From positions 1 to 36,356 of the forward strand of contig CAMNGU010000011.1 in the NCBI GenBank assembly GCA_946538525.1: DNA of 36,356 nt, given 5' to 3'. Made by a program: the position numbers and the translations under genes. Source of the stretch: an uncultured Lachnospiraceae bacterium (GTDB taxonomy: Bacteria > Bacillota > Clostridia > Lachnospirales > Lachnospiraceae). Each line of letters starts with the position of its first letter. Position 1 is the stretch's first letter. The notes below the pieces were generated by a model. It did not search any database. It saw only the letters and a list, made by a program, of their open reading frames with translations, and was not told where the DNA came from. This document shows positions 3,151 through 18,765 of the stretch, piece by piece.

Positions 3151-3191
3151 GAGTATAAAGTTTTAAAGAAGCGATTAACAGGAGGATGCAT

Positions 3192-3977
3192 ATGAAGGTT
3201 GTTTTACTTGCTGGAGGTTATGGAACAAGAATTAGTGAAGAGAGTCATCTTAAGCCAAAGCCAATGATCGAGATTGGTGGAAAGCCAATACTTTGGCATA
3301 TTATGAAGGAATATTCCTACTATGGATTTAACGAGTTTATTATCTGTGCAGGATATAAGCAGCATGTTATTAAGGAGTGGTTTGCAAATTATTATCTGCA
3401 TAATTCAGATATTACATTTGACTTCACTGCTGATAATAAGATGACAATTCATAATAATGTTGCAGAGCCATGGAAAGTTACGATTGTGGATACTGGACTA
3501 AACACTATGACAGGTGGCCGCATTAAGAGAATTAAAGATTATGTTGGTGATGAAGCATTTATGCTTACCTATGGTGATGGCGTTTGTGATATTGATATGA
3601 ATGAATTACTGAAGTTCCATAAGTCTCATGGAAAGCCGGCAACAATTACAGCTATTCGTCTTGGACAGAGATTTGGAATTCTCGATATAAATGACGCTGG
3701 GGTTATTACAAGTTTCCGTGAGAAGGAAGACAGCGATGGAGAAAGAATCAATGGTGGTTACATGGTTCTTGAACCTGAAGTATTCGATTATCTTGAAGAT
3801 GATAGCACAGTATTTGAACAGGCTCCACTTAGAAATCTTGCTAAAGATGGCAAGCTTATGGCATATGAGTATGATGGATATTGGCAGTGTATGGATACAA
3901 AAAGAGAGATGGATAAGTTGAACGAGCTTATTGAATCTGGTACTGCTCCATGGATGAAGTGGAATCAAGAAAAATAA
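3192..3977 (+). CDS. rfbF: Glucose-1-phosphate cytidylyltransferase
   Basis: MKVVLLAGGYGTRISEESHLKPKPMIEIGGKPILWHIMK; followed by rfbG and rfbH; AGGAGG RBS. Confidence 0.95.
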   Translation: MKVVLLAGGYGTRISEESHLKPKPMIEIGGKPILWHIMKEYSYYGFNEFIICAGYKQHVIKEWFANYYLHNSDITFDFTADNKMTIHNNVAEPWKVTIVDTGLNTMTGGRIKRIKDYVGDEAFMLTYGDGVCDIDMNELLKFHKSHGKPATITAIRLGQRFGILDINDAGVITSFREKEDSDGERINGGYMVLEPEVFDYLEDDSTVFEQAPLRNLAKDGKLMAYEYDGYWQCMDTKREMDKLNELIESGTAPWMKWNQEK

Positions 3978-4096
3978 TCAAAAAATAATTTTCAAAAAAT
4001 AGACTCAAAAATTGATAATCAAAAACACAAATAAATATATTAAAAAATAACTTAAAAAACTCAAAAATTTCACAAATCTTAAAAAAGGTAAATAAC

Positions 4097-5155
4097 ATGA
4101 ACAAAAAAGATCTTGAATTTTACAAGGGAAAGAAGGTTCTGATCACTGGACATACAGGCTTTAAGGGAAGTTGGATGTGCAAGATTTTGATCGGTGCTGG
4201 AGCTGAGGTTACGGGCTATTCTCTGGAACCACCTACAAATCCAAGTGTATTTGATGAGGCTGGTATAGCTGCAGAGATAAATAATGTAGTTGGAGACATT
4301 AGAGACCGTGAAAAACTTATGAAGCTGTTTGAAGAAGTACAGCCAGAGATTGTATTTCATCTGGCTGCGCAGCCTATCGTAAGAGAATCTTATAAGGATC
4401 CGGTGGGAACCTACGAGACAAATGTGATGGGTACAGTGAATATTTGTGAAGCTGTTCGCCAAACTCCAAGTGTTAAGTCTTTCCTGAATGTAACAACTGA
4501 TAAGGTTTATAAGAATAACGAGTGGTGCTGGGGATATCGCGAAGATGAGCCGTTAGATGGATATGATCCATATTCAAACTCTAAGTCATGCTCTGAGTTG
4601 GTAACCCATAGCTATATTAATTCATTTTACAATGATATGGATGTGGCTGTTTCTACAGCTCGTGCGGGAAATGTTATTGGTGGCGGTGATTATGCTCCAG
4701 ACAGAATTATTCCTGACTGCGTGAGAGCTGCTGAAAAAAATGAGCAGATAATAGTGAGAAATCCTTACTCAACTCGTCCATATCAGCATGTACTTGAGCC
4801 ACTGAATATTTATCTTACTATTGCGAAGGCGCAGTATGAGGATAAGGCAAAGGCTGGATTTTACAATGTAGGTCCGGATGACAGCGATTGTGTAACAACT
4901 GGTGATATAGTTGATAAGTTCTGTGCATCCTGGGGTGAAGGTATCTCATGGGTGAATAAGCATGACGGAGGTCCTCATGAGGCAAACTTCCTCAAGTTGG
5001 ACTGTTCGCTTATCAAACAGGTATTTGGTTGGAAACCAGTATGGAATATAGATAAGGCAATCGAAATGGTTGTCCAGTTCTCCAAGAGAAGAATGGCTGA
5101 GCCTGATAAGGTAGCTGAGGAGATGGATCTGGAAATCGATGAATTCTTTAGCTAG
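4097..5155 (+). CDS. rfbG: CDP-glucose 4,6-dehydratase
   Basis: KKVLITGHTGFKGSWMCKIL SDR signature, TTDKVY, YSNSKSCSE; gene order F-G-H. Confidence 0.95.
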   Translation: MNKKDLEFYKGKKVLITGHTGFKGSWMCKILIGAGAEVTGYSLEPPTNPSVFDEAGIAAEINNVVGDIRDREKLMKLFEEVQPEIVFHLAAQPIVRESYKDPVGTYETNVMGTVNICEAVRQTPSVKSFLNVTTDKVYKNNEWCWGYREDEPLDGYDPYSNSKSCSELVTHSYINSFYNDMDVAVSTARAGNVIGGGDYAPDRIIPDCVRAAEKNEQIIVRNPYSTRPYQHVLEPLNIYLTIAKAQYEDKAKAGFYNVGPDDSDCVTTGDIVDKFCASWGEGISWVNKHDGGPHEANFLKLDCSLIKQVFGWKPVWNIDKAIEMVVQFSKRRMAEPDKVAEEMDLEIDEFFS

Positions 5156-5333
5156 GTTATAATTTCTTAGAGCGAAGTCTTTTAGGATTATGAAATAATT
5201 AGAGAAATCAGAAAATTCAAGTAAATTATATGTCTAACAAAATGCAAAAAATATAATAAGATAATCAGTAAAATAATAAGAAAATTAGAAAAAACAAGAA
5301 ATCGAAAAAAAGAAAAAATTAGGAGAAATAAAG

Positions 5334-6680
5334 ATGAGCAAGTGGAATAGTGAATCAGAAGCAAGGGAAGAGATTAAGAGCTTAGTTGCTGAGTACTATA
5401 AAGAGTTTAAGAAACCTGAGCAGGATAAGCCATTTGAAGAGGGTGACAGAGTACCATATGCAAGCCGTGTATATGATGAGAAGGAAATGTTATCTCTTAC
5501 AGATGCAACTCTTGATTTTTGGCTTACAACTGGTAGATTTTCTGATGAGTTTGAGAAGAACTTTGCAGAATGGATTGGCGTTAAGTTTGCAAACCTAGTA
5601 AATAGTGGTTCTTCAGCTAACCTTATAGCTTTTATGACACTTACTTCACCACTTCTTGGTGATAGACAGGTTAAGCGTGGAGATGAGGTGATTACAGTTG
5701 CTGCGGGATTCCCTACAACAGTTGCTCCAATCATTCAGTATGGTGCTGTTCCTGTGTTTGTTGATGTTAAGCTTCCTGAGTATAACATTGATCCTTCGCT
5801 TCTGGAGGCGGCTCTTAGCGACAAGACAAAGGCAGTTATGATAGCTCATACTCTTGGAAATCCATTTGACTTAAAAGCAGTTAAGGAGTTCTGTGATAAG
5901 AATAATCTCTGGCTGGTTGAAGATAACTGTGATGCGCTTGGAACAAAGTATACAATTGATGGTGTTACTAAGTTCAGTGGAACTTGGGGCGACATCGGAA
6001 CAAGCAGTTTCTATCCACCACATCATATGACAATGGGTGAGGGCGGCTGCGTTTATACAGACAATCCACTTCTTAATCGTATAGCAAAGAGCCTTCGTGA
6101 CTGGGGCCGTGACTGTATCTGTCCTTCAGGACATGACAACTTCTGTGGACACAGATTTGACGGACAGTTTGGTCAGCTTCCTGAGGGCTACGATCATAAA
6201 TATGTTTATAGCCATCTCGGCTACAACCTTAAGGTTACTGACCTTCAGGCTGCAGTTGGAGTTGAGCAGTTAAAGAAATTCCCAACATTTATTGAAAAGA
6301 GAAAAGCTAACTGGAAATATCTTCGTGAAGCTCTTGCTGATCTGGAAGATAAGCTTATTCTTCCAGAACCTACAGAGAATTCAGAGCCTTCATGGTTTGG
6401 TTTCCTCATCAGCGTTCGTCCAGAGTCAGGGCTTAAGAGAAATGCTGTAACAAGATTTATTGAAGAGCATAATGTTCAGACAAGACTTCTCTTCAGTGGA
6501 AATCTTATACTTCATCCATGCTTTGACCAGATTCGTGATACAGATGCATATAGAGTATCTGGTTCACTTGATGAGACAAACTTCATCATGAATAATTCTT
6601 TCTGGATTGGCGTATATCCTGGAATGACAGAAGAGAAGCTTGCATACATGAGCAAGGTTATTCATGAAGCTGTAAAATAA
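5334..6680 (+). CDS. rfbH: CDP-4-keto-6-deoxyglucose 3-dehydrase (E1/RfbH, PLP + [2Fe-2S])
   Basis: SSFYPPHHMTMGEGGC (His in place of PLP Lys) and Cys cluster DCICPSGHDNFCGHRF; DegT-fold. Confidence 0.95.
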   Translation: MSKWNSESEAREEIKSLVAEYYKEFKKPEQDKPFEEGDRVPYASRVYDEKEMLSLTDATLDFWLTTGRFSDEFEKNFAEWIGVKFANLVNSGSSANLIAFMTLTSPLLGDRQVKRGDEVITVAAGFPTTVAPIIQYGAVPVFVDVKLPEYNIDPSLLEAALSDKTKAVMIAHTLGNPFDLKAVKEFCDKNNLWLVEDNCDALGTKYTIDGVTKFSGTWGDIGTSSFYPPHHMTMGEGGCVYTDNPLLNRIAKSLRDWGRDCICPSGHDNFCGHRFDGQFGQLPEGYDHKYVYSHLGYNLKVTDLQAAVGVEQLKKFPTFIEKRKANWKYLREALADLEDKLILPEPTENSEPSWFGFLISVRPESGLKRNAVTRFIEEHNVQTRLLFSGNLILHPCFDQIRDTDAYRVSGSLDETNFIMNNSFWIGVYPGMTEEKLAYMSKVIHEAVK

Positions 6681-6729
6681 GGATTTAAAATGTAATTTTC
6701 GCTAAGTCTTAGCGTTAATGAGTTTAGTT

Positions 6730-6758
6730 TCATCCTGAGGACTGTATCCAAAGGACCT
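6730..6758 (+). promoter_or_regulatory. Leader hairpin copy A (GA-internal-loop family)
   Basis: TCCT-GA-GGA-CTGTA-TCC-AA-AGGA. Confidence 0.6.
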
Positions 6759-6786
6759 TTACAAAAAAATTAGAGAGAAAGAAACC

Positions 6787-7755
6787 ATGGAAAATGTAAT
6801 AATAACCGGCGCTACCGGAATGATTGGAGCACATGTTGCTAAGGTTTTGATGGAGCGCGGCGTAAATGTAACAGCTATTGTCAGACCTATGTCTGAAAAG
6901 ATAGATAATCTTAAATGGGCTGAAGAGAAGGCTAGTATAGCTAACTTTGAAAATTCAAACAATAATGCAGAGGTGGGAAAACTACAGGTAGTTGAATGTA
7001 ATCTGTGGGAATTACCAAGTCTTAGAGATAAGCTGGGCTGGGAGCATGATACCTTCTTTCATTTTGGATGGGGCTATACATTTGGAACTGGTCGAAACGA
7101 TGCTCCAAAGCAGGAAGCTAATATAAAAGCCTGTCTAGATGCGGTTCATTTGGCTTATGAAGCTGGATGTAAGGCGTTTATAGGAGCTGGTTCCCAGGCT
7201 GAATTTGGTCATGTTAGTGGAAAACTATCTGATGCACTTCCTAAGGATCCGGTTACAGGATATGGAATCGCTAAACTTGCTGCATGCAGGTTATCAGCTC
7301 TGGAATGTCAGAATCTGGGCATGAAGCAGAACTGGGGCAGAATACTCAGCTGCTATGGTCCAGGAGATAATGATTATGCTATGGTCATGGCTGCTGTCAA
7401 AGCGATGCTTAGAGGAGAGAGAATGAAATTCTCACCTGGCGAGCAGGTCTGGGATTACATTTATGCAGAGGACTGTGCGAAAGCGTTTGTGGCTATAGTC
7501 GAGAAGGGCGAAAACATGAAAGCTTATACCATTGGTTCTGGAGAGCATAGACTTCTGAAGGAATATATTTATGCAATCAGGGATGCGATAGATCCAAACC
7601 TTGAAGTTGGAATTGGCGAGAGGGAATATAATCAGGATCAGGTTATGCATCTGGTAGCTGATATTACAGATCTGGTAAATGATACAGGCTATAAGCCAGA
7701 AACCAGCTTTGAAGACGGAATTAAAAAGACTATTGAGTGGGCAAAAAACTCATAA
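6787..7755 (+). CDS. NAD-dependent epimerase/dehydratase-family protein, likely CDP-3,6-dideoxyhexose reductase (abequose/paratose synthase-like)
   Basis: VIITGATGMIGAHVAKVL Rossmann motif, YGIAKLAA catalytic motif; adjacent to rfbFGH. Confidence 0.75.
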   Translation: MENVIITGATGMIGAHVAKVLMERGVNVTAIVRPMSEKIDNLKWAEEKASIANFENSNNNAEVGKLQVVECNLWELPSLRDKLGWEHDTFFHFGWGYTFGTGRNDAPKQEANIKACLDAVHLAYEAGCKAFIGAGSQAEFGHVSGKLSDALPKDPVTGYGIAKLAACRLSALECQNLGMKQNWGRILSCYGPGDNDYAMVMAAVKAMLRGERMKFSPGEQVWDYIYAEDCAKAFVAIVEKGENMKAYTIGSGEHRLLKEYIYAIRDAIDPNLEVGIGEREYNQDQVMHLVADITDLVNDTGYKPETSFEDGIKKTIEWAKNS

Positions 7756-7808: not shown

Positions 7809-7841
7809 CTAAAATATAATCTTCTAATGGAGATGAATAAT

Positions 7842-8804
7842 ATGAAAAAAGTAAGTATATTGATACCTTGCTACAATGAAGAGGAAAATGTTGTTCCTAT
7901 GAGCAACGCAATCCGTGAGATGTTTGAGAAGAACCTCCCGCAGTATGATTACGAGCTCCTGTTTATCGATAATGATTCATCAGATAACACACGTCCTCTT
8001 CTTAGAGAAATCTGTGCAAGAAATAAGCATGTGAAGGCAATATTCAATGCGAAGAATTTTGGTCAGTTCAACTCACCATATTATGGAATGCTTCAGACTT
8101 CTGGAGATTGCGTAATTTCCATGGTATGTGACTTCCAGGATCCTATTGAAATGATTCCTAAGTACCTTGAGGCTTGGGAAGAGGGCTACAAGATTGTTAT
8201 TGGAATTAAGACTGCCAGTAAAGAGAATAAGCTTATGTACGCTCTTAGATCCGTGTACTATAGCTTTGTAAAGAAGTTCTCTGATGTGGAGCAGATTCAG
8301 CATTTTACCGGTTCGGGCCTTTATGACAGAGAGTTCATCGAGGTTCTTCGTAAGCTGAAGGATCCGACACCATTCCTTCGTGGAATCGTGGCTGAGCTGG
8401 GATTTGAGAGAAAAGAAATTGAGTATGAGCAGCCAAAGAGAAGGGCTGGAAAGACACATAATAATTTCTACACCCTTTATGATGCAGCCATGCTGTCCAT
8501 TACTTCATATACGAAGATAGGACTGAGACTCTGTACGTTTATTGGAGCAATTATAGGTATTATAAGTATTATAATCAGTTTAGTTTACTTGGTGCTCAAG
8601 CTTACCAACTGGTACGGTTTTGAAGCTGGTATGGCTCCGATCATCATTTTGATCTCATTCCTTGGAGCGGTGCAGATATTCTCTATCGGCTTCATGGGCG
8701 AATATATTATGAGTATGAATAAGCGAATTATGAACAGACCTCTGGTTGTTGAAGAGGAACGAATTAATTTTGATGATAAAAAAGTTGATGAGAAAAAACT
8801 TTAA
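7842..8804 (+). CDS. GT2 glycosyltransferase with two C-terminal TM helices (GtrB/polyprenyl-phosphate glycosyltransferase-like)
   Basis: VSILIPCYNEEENV, FIDNDSSD, DFQDPIE, two hydrophobic C-terminal helices; ATG at 7842 preferred. Confidence 0.85.
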   Translation: MKKVSILIPCYNEEENVVPMSNAIREMFEKNLPQYDYELLFIDNDSSDNTRPLLREICARNKHVKAIFNAKNFGQFNSPYYGMLQTSGDCVISMVCDFQDPIEMIPKYLEAWEEGYKIVIGIKTASKENKLMYALRSVYYSFVKKFSDVEQIQHFTGSGLYDREFIEVLRKLKDPTPFLRGIVAELGFERKEIEYEQPKRRAGKTHNNFYTLYDAAMLSITSYTKIGLRLCTFIGAIIGIISIIISLVYLVLKLTNWYGFEAGMAPIIILISFLGAVQIFSIGFMGEYIMSMNKRIMNRPLVVEEERINFDDKKVDEKKL

Positions 8805-8830: not shown

Positions 8831-8866
8831 ATATGAAGAAATAAAATATGAAGAAATAAAATATGA
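8831..8866 (+). repeat. 15-bp tandem repeat (ATATGAAGAAATAAA x2 + partial) running into the start codon
   Basis: Two exact 15-mers 8831-8845 and 8846-8860, third degenerate copy carries the ATG at 8863. Confidence 0.85.
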
Positions 8867-11800
8867 ATAAATATCGTATGAAAAAACTTCATAAAGTAAT
8901 CCTGCAGTTGATGCTTATTTCTGCTTATCCTGCAGTATTTCATGCTGTGGCTTTTCTGGGAAATGGCAATATGTATAAGCCTGATAGTATGGCTGAAATG
9001 AAATTCCCAATAGCTACTTTTTTGGTGTTTGCAATCTTACTTGTAGCTACTTTTGTTACATTTATAATGGCAAAGTTGGCAGAAAAGAGAGCGAAAATCA
9101 TAGAGGACAGTGAAAATTTACAAAGCGGAAAACTAACGGCGAATTTAGCTCATACCACAAGTAAGCTGATAGCTGAAAACTCTGAAGAAAAGTTTCGTGA
9201 AGTTGTAAAAGCTCATGAGACACCTGATGAGAAGAAAAAGAGGAGAAGAAAGGCTATTAGAAGAAAGGTTCCGATTATTTTACTTTTAGTAATAAGTGTT
9301 GCTTTAAGGCTCCCGATGATTGGAACATTTCAAAGATGGGATGCAGGAGAATACTTCTACACCATAGGAACTTCAGTGCAGGATTATACATTTACCCTGT
9401 CGGACTTTCTGTATAATTTCTCAGTTGCTTATCATCTGAATTACGGATTTACAAGTTTCATCGCAATACCGCTATTTATAAATGCGAGAAGCGTTGAGGC
9501 TGTTACCATATGGCAGATCGTATTTTCAATCCTGGCGATACTTGCGTTATATCAGATTTTTAGAACTGATTTTGGATTTAGACGGTCAAAGTCTGCAGTA
9601 GGCGCATTGATGGTTGGAAATGTACCAATATTCCTGGGACTTTCAGCGTATTGTACACCAGACTATTATGTGGTTTTGTTCTTTATATTTGCGCTTTATT
9701 TTGAGGCGAAGAAACTTCATATATTAGAAGCTTTCATGATCCTTATGATGTGCTTTACGAAGGAAAATTCGGCGCTTATTGTATTTGGCTACTATGGAGT
9801 GAAGATTCTTTACAGATTCATAATAGCTGGAAAGCTTGTTGGACAGAGAAAAGCAATTTTAAATAATATTTCTAAAGCAAAGAGTAGTAAAGAATCTGCT
9901 ACGGATTTAAAAGAAGATTATAGCGATGATTATAGTGAAGATTATAACGAAGATTATAGCGAAGAATCAGAAGATGATTATGGAGAATCAGAGAATGATT
10001 CTAAAAAATCAAAACTGAGAGTAACATTTATTGAAAGACTTAAAATTGTAGTATGTTCTAAAGATTTCTGGGTTGCACTTACTACAGGAGCTGTATTTGT
10101 TGCTGCTATGGGTGTAATGGGCTCTAGTTGGGCTGATAAGCTTAATTCTACAACTATTGCACCAGATGGTATTGCGCCTACAGGATTAACCCTTGAAAAA
10201 CCTTATGTTTATTTCAAGTTGAAGCAGTTTTTTGGTTCGAATTATGCATGGCTCATATCTCTATATTTTCTTCATGCATTTAAAAATATAGTGGTTGAAA
10301 GACTATGGAAGAATCTTAGACATAAAGGCTGGATGACATTTTGTGGACTGATGGGCTCGATGTTCTTCTTCCTGGTTTTTGGTCTTGTATATCATATAGC
10401 TGCAATTGAAAGATATAACATTTTCTTTGCGATTGCTTTAGCCTTTATTTGTGCCATAATTCTTGGAACGGATCTAAATAGTAAATGGTCCTATGCGATT
10501 CTTGGTGGAATTCTAGCAATTCTTCTAGGTGTCGAGAGTTTTATAACCATAGATCCAATGACAAAGTGGCTGTTTGAACAGGTTTCCATTGGAAATGGAA
10601 GAACAATGAATTTTGAAAGTGAATTTACTGAATACTTTGGTGATGGTCTAGTTACAAATTATCAATATGCTTGGATAGACAAATCATTTGATAAATTCCT
10701 TGATGATATTGATTACAATACTGACAAAGCAATCTACTTCCCGGATGAGGAAAGTGGAATGAAGTCAGGAGTCCAGTTTGAAGGAAATGGCGGATATTTC
10801 CGAATTGGATGGTTCCCGGAAAAGAGGAAGCGCGGTTATTATGATTACAATATGTCGGATTGGGAAGAACTGTATATCTGCAGAATTTTCTCTGATAATA
10901 CATGGTTCCCTTATGTCTATGTTCCTTACACAAGAAATGTGACTACAGAATATATGAAGGATCAGTCTTATGTTTGTTTTATTCCTTACTATAAGGAATT
11001 GGGAGTGAACGAAGAGTACTATAAAAATGTTCTAAGCGAATACTATTATTTAGGCAGCGAGGAACAGTCGGAAGCTTATCGTGGAGCTATAAGTTATTAT
11101 CCTATGCTAAAAAAGGATTTGTATTCAGGTGGACTTAGCATGGATATGGTAATTGATGAGCTTAGGGCTAGTCAGAATGAGAGTAACCCGGATGCTCAAA
11201 GACAAAAAAATGTTACCAAGACTGAGATAAGCGAAGCTGCCGAGAGGCTTGCCATGTTAAAAAAGTCTGAATATCTGGTTGTTGCTGAAATGAATGAGGT
11301 TGACAGAACAAAAATTCAGGCGATGGATAGTATCATTCTCTCTGTTCAAATGTTTGATTCAGATGGTAAGAAGATTAAATTAGAGCATGAAGATGAAGAC
11401 ATGGTAGTAAGTGTTGGTACAGGGACTTTAGTAGATGAAGTAGATAAAGCTCTTCAGTCAATGGAATGTGGCGAAGTAGCAGATGTGGAGTTCAAGGTTC
11501 CAGAAGGATATCCAGAACTGGAAGAATATGCAGGAAAATCTGTAATTGCAAAGATTAGTCCACAGGAAATTGTTTGTAGTCTTGAATACAGTATTGAGCA
11601 GGAAGATATTGAAGCTATAGAAGCGTATGCCCGCGATGAGGCAAATGAGTATTTTGACAGATTGAAAGCAAAACAGTGGGTTCGTGGATATATATATCGA
11701 AATGGTACAGAAAATCTGACTAGTATGGTTTCTGAAGAAGAAATAGAAGAGGTAAGAGTGTACTATTACGAATATCTTGAAGGAGTCAATAAGACTAGAG

Positions 11801-11892
11801 ATGAATTTGAGGCCTGGATTGGTGCTACTCCAGAGGAATATGAGCAGGCATTGGCAGTAATAGCGGCCTATGCGAAATGGAGTGGAAAGTAA
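8863..11892 (+). CDS. Large polytopic membrane protein (GT-C/GT39-like) with C-terminal trigger-factor/FKBP-like domain
   Basis: Multiple TM segments with RWDAGEYFY near the N-terminal loop; C-terminus VGTGTLVDEVDKALQSMECGEVADVEFKVPEGYPELEEYAGKSVIAKI resembles FKBP/TF PPIase. Confidence 0.7.
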   Translation: MNKYRMKKLHKVILQLMLISAYPAVFHAVAFLGNGNMYKPDSMAEMKFPIATFLVFAILLVATFVTFIMAKLAEKRAKIIEDSENLQSGKLTANLAHTTSKLIAENSEEKFREVVKAHETPDEKKKRRRKAIRRKVPIILLLVISVALRLPMIGTFQRWDAGEYFYTIGTSVQDYTFTLSDFLYNFSVAYHLNYGFTSFIAIPLFINARSVEAVTIWQIVFSILAILALYQIFRTDFGFRRSKSAVGALMVGNVPIFLGLSAYCTPDYYVVLFFIFALYFEAKKLHILEAFMILMMCFTKENSALIVFGYYGVKILYRFIIAGKLVGQRKAILNNISKAKSSKESATDLKEDYSDDYSEDYNEDYSEESEDDYGESENDSKKSKLRVTFIERLKIVVCSKDFWVALTTGAVFVAAMGVMGSSWADKLNSTTIAPDGIAPTGLTLEKPYVYFKLKQFFGSNYAWLISLYFLHAFKNIVVERLWKNLRHKGWMTFCGLMGSMFFFLVFGLVYHIAAIERYNIFFAIALAFICAIILGTDLNSKWSYAILGGILAILLGVESFITIDPMTKWLFEQVSIGNGRTMNFESEFTEYFGDGLVTNYQYAWIDKSFDKFLDDIDYNTDKAIYFPDEESGMKSGVQFEGNGGYFRIGWFPEKRKRGYYDYNMSDWEELYICRIFSDNTWFPYVYVPYTRNVTTEYMKDQSYVCFIPYYKELGVNEEYYKNVLSEYYYLGSEEQSEAYRGAISYYPMLKKDLYSGGLSMDMVIDELRASQNESNPDAQRQKNVTKTEISEAAERLAMLKKSEYLVVAEMNEVDRTKIQAMDSIILSVQMFDSDGKKIKLEHEDEDMVVSVGTGTLVDEVDKALQSMECGEVADVEFKVPEGYPELEEYAGKSVIAKISPQEIVCSLEYSIEQEDIEAIEAYARDEANEYFDRLKAKQWVRGYIYRNGTENLTSMVSEEEIEEVRVYYYEYLEGVNKTRDEFEAWIGATPEEYEQALAVIAAYAKWSGK
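9916..9963 (+). repeat. 4 x 12-bp in-frame tandem repeat (GATTATAGCGAA-type) encoding DYS(D/E)
   Basis: gattatagcgat|gattatagtgaa|gattataacgaa|gattatagcgaa. Confidence 0.9.
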
Positions 11893-12017: not shown

Positions 12018-14321
12018 ATGAGCACAGAACAGAAGGACTTAAAAAAGAATGTGGCAGCAGAAGAAAAAATAGTAGAAGAAAATGCGAAAAAAGCAGCTTC
12101 AACTGTGGCTTCAAAACTAGCGAAGATTTCAGCGGCTAAAGATGATGGAGAGCTGGAAAGTACAGTTTCTAAAGCAGAAGAGAAAGAAAAAAGTACAGCA
12201 TCAACAGCATCATCCTCAAAAGAATCTTCAAGAACAGCCACATCTGGTAGTTCAAGCGGTTTCATAGCTTGGGCAAAGTCAAATAAAGGGAAGATGATAC
12301 TTGGCGTTATAGCTTTATTTATTATCTATGTACTCTATCAGCTGAAATATGTTTATGAAGTTTGGTTCGATCCAGACGAGCTGGATATTTATACTGTTGC
12401 ATTTGAGATGGTAAAGGGTAAGGTGCTATATAGAGATATAGCTTCTCAGCATATGCCATTTACATATATTTACAGTACCATCTTCTATTGGCTGGGTGCA
12501 CATGAAGTTTGGCTTCAGAGAATATATTATTACATTCTGTTTGCTTTCTTCTGGACTATGTTTGTTATTAGATATAATAAGTATGTGAATAAATGGGCGC
12601 TTGTGCTTCATCCATTTCTATTCTATACATATATGCAGCTTCAGGATTTTTCTACACAGATTCTTTCGGAAAATATAGTAGCAATCGGTGCAGAAATATT
12701 TGTTCTGGAGTTCATTCGTTTCCTTAAAGAAAAAGATATTGATACAAAGGGCTGCATCCTTATGGCTGTAGCGGTAATGTTCACCTTTGGTACCACATTC
12801 ATAGCAATATTCCCACTGTTCTTTGTTGGATTGGGAGTACTTCTACTAGAGATTAAGTGGCGCATCGAAAGAGGGCAGTCTCGTAAGGACTGGTGGCAGA
12901 TGATGCTAAAGAGATATGGAAAGCTTTTCGGAATCACCTTGATTCCATGGCTAGGGTTCCTTATCTACGGAGCTGCTACACATTCTTTAGGCGACTTCTA
13001 TGTAGATGCTTATCTTATCAACAGACTTTACTATCCTAAGTACAATGATGGCGTTGGCGGAAGTGTTGGAGGTACATTCCTGACTCCGTTTATGAGCCTT
13101 GCAAATGAATTCTTCGGCATAAATATGTCTGCGATAGAACCAACATTTGTTCTTAGATGGATAGGTATAATCGCCGGAGGACTTTACTTCCCATATAAGC
13201 TGGCAAGAAAGTATGGATGGATTGCCGGATTTACTATGTTTGTATATACATTCTCTTATGGAACAAGAGGGTATTTCAATTATCACGGCAAGGGATTCGT
13301 GGCAGTTATAAGTATGATGACCATGATCACACTTGTTCAGTATGCATATAACAGTAAAGAAAGCTTTGATAATGGCGGCCTTGCAAGAAAGGCTTTCCTT
13401 GCTACAGCAGTAATGCTTATATTTGCAAATAATGCTTATAACATGAATAACATGTTCACAGTTCTTGTGAATTCAGAATATAACCACTATCAGTATGATA
13501 CAGATTATCTTACAAAGATTACTGATGAGGATGAGAGAATCTGGATGACTAATATGTGCGATGCTATTCCTTGGGCTGCTAAGAGAGTAACAACAGGTTC
13601 TCCAGTAAGTTGTCCATGGATGTGGGAAGGTGTAGGAGCTCCAATGTTTGAAGAGTTTTCCAAGAACCCACCTAGAGTTATTATGTTCCAGCTGGGATAT
13701 GAATCTTGGGGACACAAGATGGCAGACTATGCGCCGGATGCATATTATTTCATAGTAAATAACTACAGATATCTTCCAGATTCAGGACAGCTCTGGGTGC
13801 TTAATTCATACTATGATGAGGCATGCCGCAAGGTAGGAATTGATCCGGAAACTTATCCAAATGATAATGGCCTTGGGGTAACCCCATACACAGTTGATCC
13901 TTCAGAAATACCAGGAATGACAGCAGAAGATAGAGCAAGATATAGAGAAGCATTGGCAAATGGTGGTGCACCGGCTGAAGTGAAAACAGAGGAACCTACA
14001 ACAGAGGAAGTTACCACAGAGGAGCAAACTACTGAGGCAACAACAGAGGCAACAACCGAAGAAATCAATGTAGATGATGACGCGGAAGATAGCGATGCAC
14101 TTATCGTAACACCTGATTCAAATGATAATAATGATATTATTGATGATACAACAGGACCTGGTTCTACTTCATCAGGAAATGGACCTGGAGATGTAAATGT
14201 AAGCCCTGCAGATGAAAGAGGCGGAAGTAACAGTGATGTAAATGGTGATACACCTGGTGCAGTACAGGCTCCAGATGGCAGCTGGGTAATACCAGACGAT
14301 AGTGATGGACCAGGAATGTAA
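12018..14321 (+). CDS. Polytopic membrane protein (GT-C-like) with Thr/Glu/Asp/Gly-rich C-terminal tail
   Basis: Ala/Lys/Ser-rich N-terminus, about 10 hydrophobic segments, VWFDPDELDIYTVAFEMVKGKVLYRDIASQHMPF near the first loop, TTEE-repeat tail. Confidence 0.65.
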   Translation: MSTEQKDLKKNVAAEEKIVEENAKKAASTVASKLAKISAAKDDGELESTVSKAEEKEKSTASTASSSKESSRTATSGSSSGFIAWAKSNKGKMILGVIALFIIYVLYQLKYVYEVWFDPDELDIYTVAFEMVKGKVLYRDIASQHMPFTYIYSTIFYWLGAHEVWLQRIYYYILFAFFWTMFVIRYNKYVNKWALVLHPFLFYTYMQLQDFSTQILSENIVAIGAEIFVLEFIRFLKEKDIDTKGCILMAVAVMFTFGTTFIAIFPLFFVGLGVLLLEIKWRIERGQSRKDWWQMMLKRYGKLFGITLIPWLGFLIYGAATHSLGDFYVDAYLINRLYYPKYNDGVGGSVGGTFLTPFMSLANEFFGINMSAIEPTFVLRWIGIIAGGLYFPYKLARKYGWIAGFTMFVYTFSYGTRGYFNYHGKGFVAVISMMTMITLVQYAYNSKESFDNGGLARKAFLATAVMLIFANNAYNMNNMFTVLVNSEYNHYQYDTDYLTKITDEDERIWMTNMCDAIPWAAKRVTTGSPVSCPWMWEGVGAPMFEEFSKNPPRVIMFQLGYESWGHKMADYAPDAYYFIVNNYRYLPDSGQLWVLNSYYDEACRKVGIDPETYPNDNGLGVTPYTVDPSEIPGMTAEDRARYREALANGGAPAEVKTEEPTTEEVTTEEQTTEATTEATTEEINVDDDAEDSDALIVTPDSNDNNDIIDDTTGPGSTSSGNGPGDVNVSPADERGGSNSDVNGDTPGAVQAPDGSWVIPDDSDGPGM

Positions 14322-15089: not shown

Positions 15090-16553
15090 ATGAACAAGAA
15101 AAAACTACTACGAATTCTGTTCGTAGTAATAATAATCATTCTTAATTTAATAATTTTTTGGAAGATAGATTTTTCCGATATTGACACCAAGGGTGTTTCA
15201 TTTGTGATGGAGATGGCTTCGAATAAAGATGATGAATATCAGATTTATTACACTAAGGTGGGCGAGGATTTTAGCGAAGCAGCCAGCAAGAAGGTGTTTT
15301 ACGATGGCTTTGCAAATGGAACAGATGTAACAACCATAGAAAATGATACTGAAAGCATTACTGTAGGAAAAAAACAAACCCTAAGATTTGATTATCCAAT
15401 AGAATATGATAATCTTCGTCTTGATTTTGGCCAGTATGCAGGAAATACAGTTATTTATGATATGTATTTTGAGATGTCTGGAGTAAAATATCAGATACCT
15501 ATGGAGCAGATTCAAAATGAGAAGAATGCTCCAAGCATTCTGTCTAGAATATTGATGGAAAAGGAAGGACAACAGTGTCTGGTAGTAAATGCAGAAGCTG
15601 GAGATCCAAACATGCTTATTCAGTTCCATAAGGATCAGCTTTTGGAACAGTATAGAGAAGCAAATAGACAGAATACGCTTATTTTAGATATTGCAATATG
15701 TGTTGTTATGGATTTTATTGCAATCTATGTACTTCTGCACTTTTATTCTTTGATTGATATTCCAGTACAGATTTATCAGAATAGAAAGCTGGCTTTAACA
15801 CTTGCTAAAAATGATTTCAAGACAAAATATGCAGGTTCATATCTTGGTATGATATGGGCATTTATACAGCCGGTGGTTACCATTTTGGTTTATTGGTTCG
15901 TCTTTTCAGTAGGTTTAAAGGCTGGTAATGAGGGAGACTACCCATATGTTCTTTTCATTGTGGTAGGTATTATTCCTTGGTTCTTCTTCTCGGATTCACT
16001 TAATGGAGGAACCAATGCAATGACAGACTATAACTATCTGGTTAAAAAGGTGGTATTCAATATTGATATCCTTCCATTTGTGAAGGTATTATCAGCATTT
16101 TTCGTGCATTGTTTCTTTATTGCATTTGCACTGATCCTCTGTACTTGTATGGGACATCATCCAACCATCTATACGGTTCAGCTTATATACTACATATTCT
16201 GTAACTTCGTGTTTGTACTGGGGCTTTCATATCTTAGCTCTGCAATAGTAGTATTCTTCCGAGATTTAGGGCAGTTTATAAATATATTTATCCTGCAGGT
16301 GGGTGTATGGCTTACACCTATTATGTGGAATGCAAATAAGATGCTTAGTCCAACTGCGCTTAAGTTATTTAAGATAAATCCAATGTTCTATATTGTCAGT
16401 GGATTCAGGGACAGCGTTCTGGATAAGAACTGGTTCTGGACAGGAGACAGACTCCTTTGGACCATTTATTTCTGGATTATCACAATATTGGTATTTGGAC
16501 TGGGAGTAAAAATATTTAGAAGATTGAAGATACATTTTGCAGATGTATTGTAA
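15090..16553 (+). CDS. ABC-2 polysaccharide export permease (Wzm-like) with about 200-aa N-terminal TM + extracytoplasmic domain
   Basis: C-terminal half FKTKYAGSYLGMIWAFIQPVVTILVYWFVFSVGLKAG...; N-terminal TM, soluble segment, TM. Confidence 0.9.
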   Translation: MNKKKLLRILFVVIIIILNLIIFWKIDFSDIDTKGVSFVMEMASNKDDEYQIYYTKVGEDFSEAASKKVFYDGFANGTDVTTIENDTESITVGKKQTLRFDYPIEYDNLRLDFGQYAGNTVIYDMYFEMSGVKYQIPMEQIQNEKNAPSILSRILMEKEGQQCLVVNAEAGDPNMLIQFHKDQLLEQYREANRQNTLILDIAICVVMDFIAIYVLLHFYSLIDIPVQIYQNRKLALTLAKNDFKTKYAGSYLGMIWAFIQPVVTILVYWFVFSVGLKAGNEGDYPYVLFIVVGIIPWFFFSDSLNGGTNAMTDYNYLVKKVVFNIDILPFVKVLSAFFVHCFFIAFALILCTCMGHHPTIYTVQLIYYIFCNFVFVLGLSYLSSAIVVFFRDLGQFINIFILQVGVWLTPIMWNANKMLSPTALKLFKINPMFYIVSGFRDSVLDKNWFWTGDRLLWTIYFWIITILVFGLGVKIFRRLKIHFADVL

Positions 16554-16563
16554 ATAAAATATA

Positions 16564-16588
16564 ATTCTGAGGCTTTTGGCTGAAGAAT
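16564..16588 (+). promoter_or_regulatory. Leader hairpin copy E
   Basis: ATTCT-GA-GGCT-TTT-GGCT-GA-AGAAT (inner stem uses G-U). Confidence 0.65.
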
Positions 16589-16602
16589 TTTAGGTGAAAA
16601 TC

Positions 16603-17955
16603 ATGTCAGAAGATATAGCAATTAGAATAAATGATGTTTCAAAACTGTATAAGCTTTACGATAAGCCTACTGACCGGTTGAAGGAGTCTTTGGGACTTAC
16701 CAAGGCCAAGAAGTATAAGGAGCATTTCGCTCTTCGCAATGTGAGTTTTGATGTGAAGAGAGGTGAATGCGTAGGAATAATTGGAACTAATGGTGCTGGA
16801 AAGTCTACTATCCTGAAAATCATAACTGGAGTTCTAAATCCTACTGCCGGAGAGGTTACTATAAATGGCCGTATCTCTGCTCTTCTAGAGTTAGGAGCCG
16901 GCTTCAATATGGAATATACAGGTATAGAAAATGTTTATCTAAATGGTTCCATGATTGGATTTAGTCGTGAGGAAATTGATGCAAAATTACAGGATATACT
17001 TGATTTTGCTGATATAGGTGATTTTGTAAATCAGCCTGTAAAGACTTACTCATCAGGTATGTTTGTAAGACTTGCCTTTGCGGTGGCAATCAATATTGAA
17101 CCAGAAATACTTATAGTTGATGAAGCACTTTCAGTAGGTGATGTTTTCTTCCAGCTGAAATGCTTTAAAAAGTTTGAGGAATTTAAGCAGCAGGGAAAAA
17201 CTATTCTCTTTGTAAGTCATGATCTTTCAAGTATAGAGAAGTATTGTGACAAGGCAATTCTTCTGGATCATGGTAGAAATGTTGGAGAAGGAACTCCAAT
17301 TGATATCATAAATAAATATAAGAAGATAATGACAGGAATGACTGTCGAAGAAGTTGAAGAGCAGGAAAAGAGGAAAGCTGAGCTTAGAGATTTAGTAGCT
17401 GAGGACTCAGAAAATTCTGAAAATAAAGAGGAATTAGAAGAGGCTAAAACCAGTACTTTTTCACTTACACCAGAGGTTCCTTGGAAAGAAAGCTTTGATC
17501 TAAATCCAAATCTTGATGAATATGGAGATATGGGTGCCAAGATTATTGATATCGGTGTGTTTGATGAAGATGAAAATCTTACAACCACAATAATAAAGGG
17601 CGGTAAATTTACATTAAGATCAAAGATAGAATTTAAAACAGATATAGAAGATCCTATTTTTACATACACCTTTAAGACACTTAAAGGCCAGGATATTACA
17701 GGTACAAATACCATGTATGAAAAAGCAGGAGTAGGAATTGCCCATGCAGGGGATATATTTGTGGCAAGTTTTACACAGGAGATGAACCTGCAGGGAGGAG
17801 AATATCTGCTCTCTATGAGTTGTACAAGTTTTGTAAATGGCGATCTTGTAGCTCATGACAGACTCTATGATGTATTAAATATCACGGTTGTGTCGGACAA
17901 GAATACTGTGGGATTCTATGATATGAATTCCAAGGTTAAAATTGATAAATTATAG
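16603..17955 (+). CDS. ABC transporter ATPase (Wzt-like) with C-terminal carbohydrate-binding-like domain
   Basis: GTNGAGKSTILKII Walker A, YSSGMFVRLAFAVAI signature, ILIVDEAL Walker B; C-terminal about 150-aa beta-rich domain; ATG 16603 with AGGTG RBS preferred over GTG 16594. Confidence 0.93.
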   Translation: MSEDIAIRINDVSKLYKLYDKPTDRLKESLGLTKAKKYKEHFALRNVSFDVKRGECVGIIGTNGAGKSTILKIITGVLNPTAGEVTINGRISALLELGAGFNMEYTGIENVYLNGSMIGFSREEIDAKLQDILDFADIGDFVNQPVKTYSSGMFVRLAFAVAINIEPEILIVDEALSVGDVFFQLKCFKKFEEFKQQGKTILFVSHDLSSIEKYCDKAILLDHGRNVGEGTPIDIINKYKKIMTGMTVEEVEEQEKRKAELRDLVAEDSENSENKEELEEAKTSTFSLTPEVPWKESFDLNPNLDEYGDMGAKIIDIGVFDEDENLTTTIIKGGKFTLRSKIEFKTDIEDPIFTYTFKTLKGQDITGTNTMYEKAGVGIAHAGDIFVASFTQEMNLQGGEYLLSMSCTSFVNGDLVAHDRLYDVLNITVVSDKNTVGFYDMNSKVKIDKL

Positions 17956-18021: not shown

Positions 18022-18765
18022 ATGGATATTTACGACGAGCTTTTAAATATAGTAAAAACTGAATCGGATTTAGAAGAGTTTCTTACCCATGAGAATAAAT
18101 GGGAATATCTCTATAATTTTTCAAATATCAGGAAGAATATTCTCGAATGGTATGATTTTAAATCTGATGCAAAGCTTTTGGAGTTTGGAGCAGAATGTGG
18201 TGCACTCACAGGGCTTTTCTGCGAAAGAGTGAAGGAAGTTGTTTCTGTTGAAGATGATGAGAGAAAACGACTGGTAAATAAAGCAAGAAATGAAAAATAT
18301 AGTAATTTAAAGATTGTATCTAACGAAGAATTGTCAGAGAAATCTTTTGATTATATTACTATAATTGGTAATTTTTCGATTGAAACTTTGAAAAAGGCTA
18401 AAAAGTTATTAAAGCCAAAGGGACGACTTATTATAGCAATCGAAAATAAATATGGAATGAAGTACTGGTCAGGAGAAGAGAGACCTGATACTTATTCCAG
18501 AATGCAATTAATTGGAATAATAAGGCGTGAGGGATTGCTGGAAGATGAGGTTTATTATCCTATTCCAGACTATGTATTACCTACGGAGATATATTCATCA
18601 AATAATCTGCCTAAAGTGGGAAGTATTTCTGCAAACTCTCCAGCATATGAAAAAGAAAAGATTACTGCATTTGACGAACCTTCAGCCTTTGATATGGTGA
18701 TAAAAGACAGAAGATTTGAAGAGTTTGCGAATTCATTTTTAATCTTTGCTAAGAGTAATAGCTAA
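18022..18765 (+). CDS. Class I SAM-dependent methyltransferase of the glycan-cluster MTase/kinase type
   Basis: KLLEFGAECGALTGLFCERVKEVVSVEDD motif I, RLIIAIENKYGMKYWSG. Confidence 0.8.
   Translation: MDIYDELLNIVKTESDLEEFLTHENKWEYLYNFSNIRKNILEWYDFKSDAKLLEFGAECGALTGLFCERVKEVVSVEDDERKRLVNKARNEKYSNLKIVSNEELSEKSFDYITIIGNFSIETLKKAKKLLKPKGRLIIAIENKYGMKYWSGEERPDTYSRMQLIGIIRREGLLEDEVYYPIPDYVLPTEIYSSNNLPKVGSISANSPAYEKEKITAFDEPSAFDMVIKDRRFEEFANSFLIFAKSNS

Follow-up and report, generated by a model that had tools for sequence, protein, structure and literature searches.

The C-terminal module of a GT-C membrane protein from an uncultured Lachnospiraceae bacterium has, as judged from sequence alignments with trigger factors, lost the aromatic pocket of the prolyl isomerase and kept its fold, and this pocket loss with conservation of the fold is what is new here. 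The protein of 1009 amino acids is encoded in the analyzed stretch of 36,356 nucleotides (the window), and its residues ~806-1009 are homologous to the peptidyl-prolyl isomerase (PPIase) domain and the C-terminal helical part of trigger factor. We interpret it as a GT-C glycosyltransferase with a trigger factor-derived, non-catalytic docking module for an acceptor or a partner protein, a reading to which we assign a probability of about 0.55. The preliminary description of this DNA had regarded the architecture as not described before, and no paper on a fusion of trigger factor and GT-C parts was found within the literature searched. The C-terminal peptide quoted there and the ORF were found exactly at the place indicated; of the feature reported at 11250-11889 the module itself was confirmed, its start having been set slightly early, as the FKBP part begins at ~11278. 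The ORF and its parts are as follows:

8863-11892, plus strand: GT-C membrane glycosyltransferase-like protein with C-terminal FKBP/trigger factor module (1009 aa; Lachnospiraceae bacterium)
9223-10551, plus strand: GT-C core, residues 121-563, with 11 of the 13 predicted membrane helices (hydropathy and charge profile, model helices, Foldseek)
9334-9354, plus strand: RWDAGEY motif opening the core's first outer loop, with putative catalytic Asp160 (and Glu163)
10552-11112, plus strand: outer domain, residues 564-750, common to the whole family, also present in members that end here and conserved among the fusions
11113-11277, plus strand: residues 751-805, a variable linker with a lead-in helix, of low conservation (model helix 786-804)
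11278-11577, plus strand: FKBP-fold domain of the trigger factor type with loss of the aromatic pocket, residues 806-905 (Pfam, NCBIfam, profile-profile comparison, AlphaFold, Foldseek)
11578-11889, plus strand: helical C-terminal part of the trigger factor type, residues 906-1009, with a conserved YxxxY terminal hairpin (hhalign of the tail, Foldseek)

The relationship of the C-terminus to trigger factor was established by several comparisons. The Pfam model FKBP_C matched residues 817-888 with 23.8 bits (curated cut-off 21.1, E 5.7e-5), and the NCBIfam trigger factor model (tig) matched residues 808-899 only (E 1e-7, 31 bits, cut-off 180), a score far under the equivalog cut-off, as is expected because one domain alone matches; the N-terminal ribosome-binding domain of trigger factor is absent from the fusion and the whole-protein tig score is not reached. 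The same model was matched by seven of nine aligned relatives. A profile built only from trigger factor-like lipoproteins of other genomes recovered the ORF in its own genome (E 1.7e-13), and profile-profile comparison of the module with these secreted lipoproteins gave a probability of 98.3 (E 1.6e-14, 154 columns). When the parts were compared separately by hhalign, the FKBP domain reached 97.4% and the helical tail 89.5%, and five column-shuffled controls of the tail remained at ≤0.2%. A single-sequence phmmer search against the PDB gave no significant match. Residues 750-1009 were additionally modeled alone with AlphaFold on the basis of nine sequences, taken from the window and from related loci (pLDDT 86.9), and the best PDB matches of this model were the trigger factors 7zgi, 2vrh, 1w26, 1t11, and 3gu0 over ~250 columns, an alignment that includes the tail, followed by FKBP2/FKBP13 over the FKBP part (TM 0.68-0.73; FKBP2 TM 0.73, rmsd ~3). 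Within the tail, Y967 and Y971 are invariant among nine close relatives. Profile comparison and modeling, which had been proposed as checks, thus both led to an FKBP/trigger factor match and an FKBP-like fold, and the trigger factor/FKBP-like domain and the helical tail of the preliminary description were borne out. A chance match is ruled out by the Pfam result, the profile-profile comparison, the search with the lipoprotein profile and the shuffled controls.

The architecture most similar to the module is found in secreted trigger factor-like (FKBP-type) lipoproteins of Lachnospiraceae, which share with trigger factor and the fusion the order of an FKBP fold and a subsequent helical C-terminal part. 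Unlike these proteins, the module of the window is fused to a membrane enzyme, has neither the ribosome-binding N-domain nor a lipobox, and combines a helical part shortened to ~104 residues with the loss of the PPIase pocket.

The pocket was examined in an alignment of Escherichia coli trigger factor (from NC_000913), 14 trigger factor or trigger factor-like controls and nine fusions. In the E. coli enzyme, I195, P196, F217, P218, Y221, and H222 hold the substrate proline, F177 lies in a neighboring cleft, the aromatic residues F177 and F217 contact the substrate and catalysis centers on the backbone NH of I195 (PMC6166725). F177, F198, F217, and F233 (E. coli numbering) were kept in all 14 controls, whereas they were replaced in all nine fusions by V, I, L or A, with a Tyr at position 177 of one locus (L061) as the sole exception. 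P218 was kept in 8/9 fusions and Y221 in 4/9, being present in the subgroup of the window and lost in the second subgroup. The pocket of the fusions is therefore lined by smaller aliphatic residues while the fold residues, which make up most of the conserved positions of the module, stay. The FKBP parts of the fusions share 48-52% identity with the two nearest relatives and 62-63% in the other subgroup, and the corresponding values of the GT-C core are 55% and 55-60%; the FKBP part is thus about as conserved as the core, so that the domain looks maintained by selection. Between the near-identical pair G211/G212 two synonymous and no amino acid-changing differences were counted in the FKBP part, too few to serve as a lone test. 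Pocket loss together with fold conservation speaks for a maintained but altered function of a module that presumably has no isomerase activity, and because the pocket was lost while the fold was conserved we infer a docking role. Among the functions offered in the preliminary description, the degenerate, non-catalytic binding domain is thereby favored, the pocket aromatics being lost in every fusion.

These residues also bear on the idea that the module is an active chaperone or isomerase tethered to the enzyme, which would fold or hold unfolded exported proteins for glycosylation by the GT-C part. The complete order of PPIase domain and arm known from trigger factor and its secreted relatives and the retained equivalent of Tyr221 in the window subgroup are in line with it, but the substrate-contacting F177 and F217 are gone in every fusion (PMC6166725), the second subgroup has lost Tyr221 as well and the helical part is cut down to ~104 residues. 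We regard such an activity as unlikely. Since the holding function of chaperones is independent of isomerase activity, a holdase role of the module nevertheless stays within reach.

From the full-length AlphaFold model of the protein (pLDDT 82.1, pTM 0.78) together with the hydropathy and charge profile, 13 membrane helices are predicted. In this topology the long inner loops are basic, and both the loop bearing the RWDAGEY motif and the 446-residue tail are assigned to the outside; since thirteen helices with basic inner loops place the tail there, the trigger factor-derived module is predicted to lie outside the membrane, which answers the question of sidedness raised at the outset. Foldseek searches with the membrane part of the model returned STT3, AglB, ALG12, ALG9, ArnT, PMT4, PglB, and AftB (TMt 0.54 for ALG9/ALG12 and 0.42 for ArnT), and the C-terminal end of the same model matched trigger factors. 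According to the model, the protein has a GT-C fold, as the preliminary description had proposed; the named family models stayed under their cut-offs, with 23.9 bits for Pfam PMT_2 (cut-off 26.1) and 26.5 bits for NCBIfam AZOBR_p60025 (cut-off 150). Nine close relatives all have D160 and E163, D160 is nearly invariant in 21 family members, and by analogy to GT-C enzymes D160 (and E163) are putative catalytic residues.

Comparison of the flanking sequences revealed a cluster of sugar-related genes in the window:

3186-7755, plus strand: CDP-sugar genes (glucose-1-phosphate cytidylyltransferase, CDP-glucose 4,6-dehydratase, RfbH, NAD-dependent epimerase/reductase), the first three being NCBIfam equivalogs above cut-off
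7827-8804, plus strand: PgfS-like GT2 that would synthesize a polyprenyl-phosphate sugar and probably makes the donor (NCBIfam PgfS under its cut-off, E 6.6e-51)
12018-14321, plus strand: second GT-C-like membrane protein, which lacks the module; a conserved neighbor (assigned to GT-C by reading the sequence)
15090-17955, plus strand: Wzm/Wzt polysaccharide ABC exporter, Wzt with Wzt_C (Pfam ABC2_membrane and Wzt_C, NCBIfam)

This first neighborhood was found in the window, NE2001, AC2031, G211, G212, and G239. The fusion gene is preceded by CDP-3,6-dideoxyhexose genes and the PgfS-like GT2, which occupies the same position in L028, L029, L087, L092, and L093, and is followed by the gene of the second GT-C-like protein, then by that of an RmlC-like epimerase and, on contigs that reach far enough, by Wzm/Wzt; the version of G239 has one additional gene in between. 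In the second neighborhood (G218, G236, G240, and a second copy in G212; loci L086, L088, L089, and L090) the fusion lies in housekeeping surroundings between ispH-rpsA/cmk and genes for a signal peptidase-like protein and a YlqF-like GTPase (names from reading the sequences), with no sugar genes and no adjacent donor synthase. G212 holds both fusion types (L042/L088 and L035/L093), which are paralogs or separately acquired lineages.

Several further features of the first neighborhood were noted. The second GT-C-like protein, for which neither Pfam nor NCBIfam gave a family match, carries in the window, L028 (9386-11866) and L029 (9208-11706) a long Thr/Glu-rich tail with TTEATTE repeats that ends in a conserved APDGSWVxPDDSxGPG and is a possible glycosylation target or anchor. 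The Wzm-like permease of the window (15090-16553) comprises 487 aa with a long extra segment in the N-terminal half, compared to 351 aa in L028, 332 aa in L029 and ~490 aa in G239 and G212. The gene at 18022-18765, downstream of Wzt, encodes a methyltransferase-like protein that weakly matches rRNA adenine dimethylase, and similar genes adjoin Wzt in L087 and L093.

The juxtaposition of GT2 and GT-C genes resembles three-component GT-C systems (Gtr, GT136, ArnT type), with which the fusion shares the multi-helix GT-C fold, the acidic motif of the first outer loop and the adjacent GT2. It differs from them in that no dedicated flippase was recognized among the neighborhood genes scanned, in the family scores below cut-off and in carrying a trigger factor-derived module where others carry none or a carbohydrate-binding module. 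A further likeness, with a score below cut-off, is that of the GT2 to PgfS, which acts with PgfM1/M2 in the Pgf protein glycosylation of Streptococcus mutans (PMC5856776). For the docking reading we propose that the GT2 would supply a polyprenyl-phosphate sugar donor, and we infer lipid-sugar use by the GT-C protein; its core with D160 would then, as the fold suggests, probably transfer the sugar to an acceptor on the outer side of the cytoplasmic membrane, while the outer, non-catalytic module, retained as a docking domain after loss of the prolyl isomerase pocket, would keep this acceptor, be it protein or glycan, or else a partner protein close to the enzyme. Binding modules on the outer side are known from GT-C enzymes (PMC11127046).

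As the cluster of the window is of polysaccharide type with Wzm/Wzt, the module might instead have turned into a glycan-binding domain. We consider this very unlikely, as the pocket aromatics were lost, not gained, and we know of no glycan-binding FKBP fold. It would act like the outer carbohydrate-binding modules (CBMs) that occur on other GT-C enzymes (PMC11127046).

Within the genus, the fusion was detected at nine loci in 8/61 genomes and in two unrelated gene neighborhoods; G243 was left out of this count, since a contig end cuts the gene. The recurrence in nine loci and in a contig of 3.19 Mb rules out an assembly or frameshift artefact. A scan of GTDB contigs yielded full-length fusions in Lachnospiraceae NE2001 and AC2031 and one partial copy. 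In the wider family, a related GT-C core is present in 24/396 genomes, mostly in proteins that end at ~610-700 residues without the module; in a single case, from another genus (G266), the protein ends in a strongly diverged FKBP/trigger factor-like part, weakly recognized by hhalign (62%) and without a Pfam FKBP match. No further fusions were found in ~790 more genomes drawn from order and phylum, which are overlapping samples so that rarer fusions can exist; outside the family, these draws gave only stand-alone ORFs of trigger factor or trigger factor-like size. Plasmid-borne relatives were not found. The homolog count therefore describes the fusion as a real, inherited architecture of narrow distribution. 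One related GT-C core (L062 589-3360, G011) is extended at its C-terminus by another segment, which matches Spa1_C weakly and below cut-off, and the GT-C family may therefore swap outer modules.

In the tree of GT-C cores, the fusions of the genus and the short protein of G239 form one clade (100/100), within which G239 is nested (100/100 and 94/90). Through an in-frame loss, the G239 protein lacks both the FKBP part and the first helix of the tail, but the terminal hairpin with the two conserved tyrosines is kept. From this nesting, the module was most likely present first and then lost in G239, and would have been in place already in the ancestor of the genus clade. By the AU test (p 0.23), G266 may have shared this origin or gained its module separately. 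Because the enzyme persists in G239 although the FKBP part is missing, the module can be dispensed with.

This natural dispensability, with only the terminal hairpin left, would also fit a structural appendage that stabilizes the enzyme or mediates the formation of dimers or complexes, e.g., with the second GT-C protein or the exporter, and has no contact with the acceptor. It agrees with conserved residues that are mostly fold residues and with the precedent of an FKBP protein for which a non-catalytic adaptor role has been argued: FKBP11 lies beside the OST-containing secretory translocon, and its nominal catalytic site is buried (PMC12804085). On the other hand, the fold is kept in two genomic contexts with different neighbors, and a cluster-specific partner can therefore not explain all members; we hold this reading to be unlikely. 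FKBP11, a useful parallel for the docking reading too, resembles the fusion in that an FKBP fold is positioned next to a GT-C glycosyltransferase, but it is a separate, unfused eukaryotic protein, and the likeness is a functional analogy only, not kinship. A one-protein counterpart of FKBP11 and OST, in which a built-in, chaperone-derived recruiting domain would catch exported unfolded proteins as clients and pass them to the GT-C active site, is an improbable extension of this analogy.

The choice of acceptors by GT-C enzymes is poorly known, and the outer additions described for them are mainly carbohydrate-binding or repeat domains. As read from the sequences, the domain combination shows a clear sign of repurposing, and a trigger factor module with the fold kept and the isomerase pocket lost would cleanly exemplify how a foldase can become a docking module, with the natural deletion in G239 at hand as a control. 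Should the acceptor be a protein, the fusion would connect bacterial glycosylation with folding that is linked to export.
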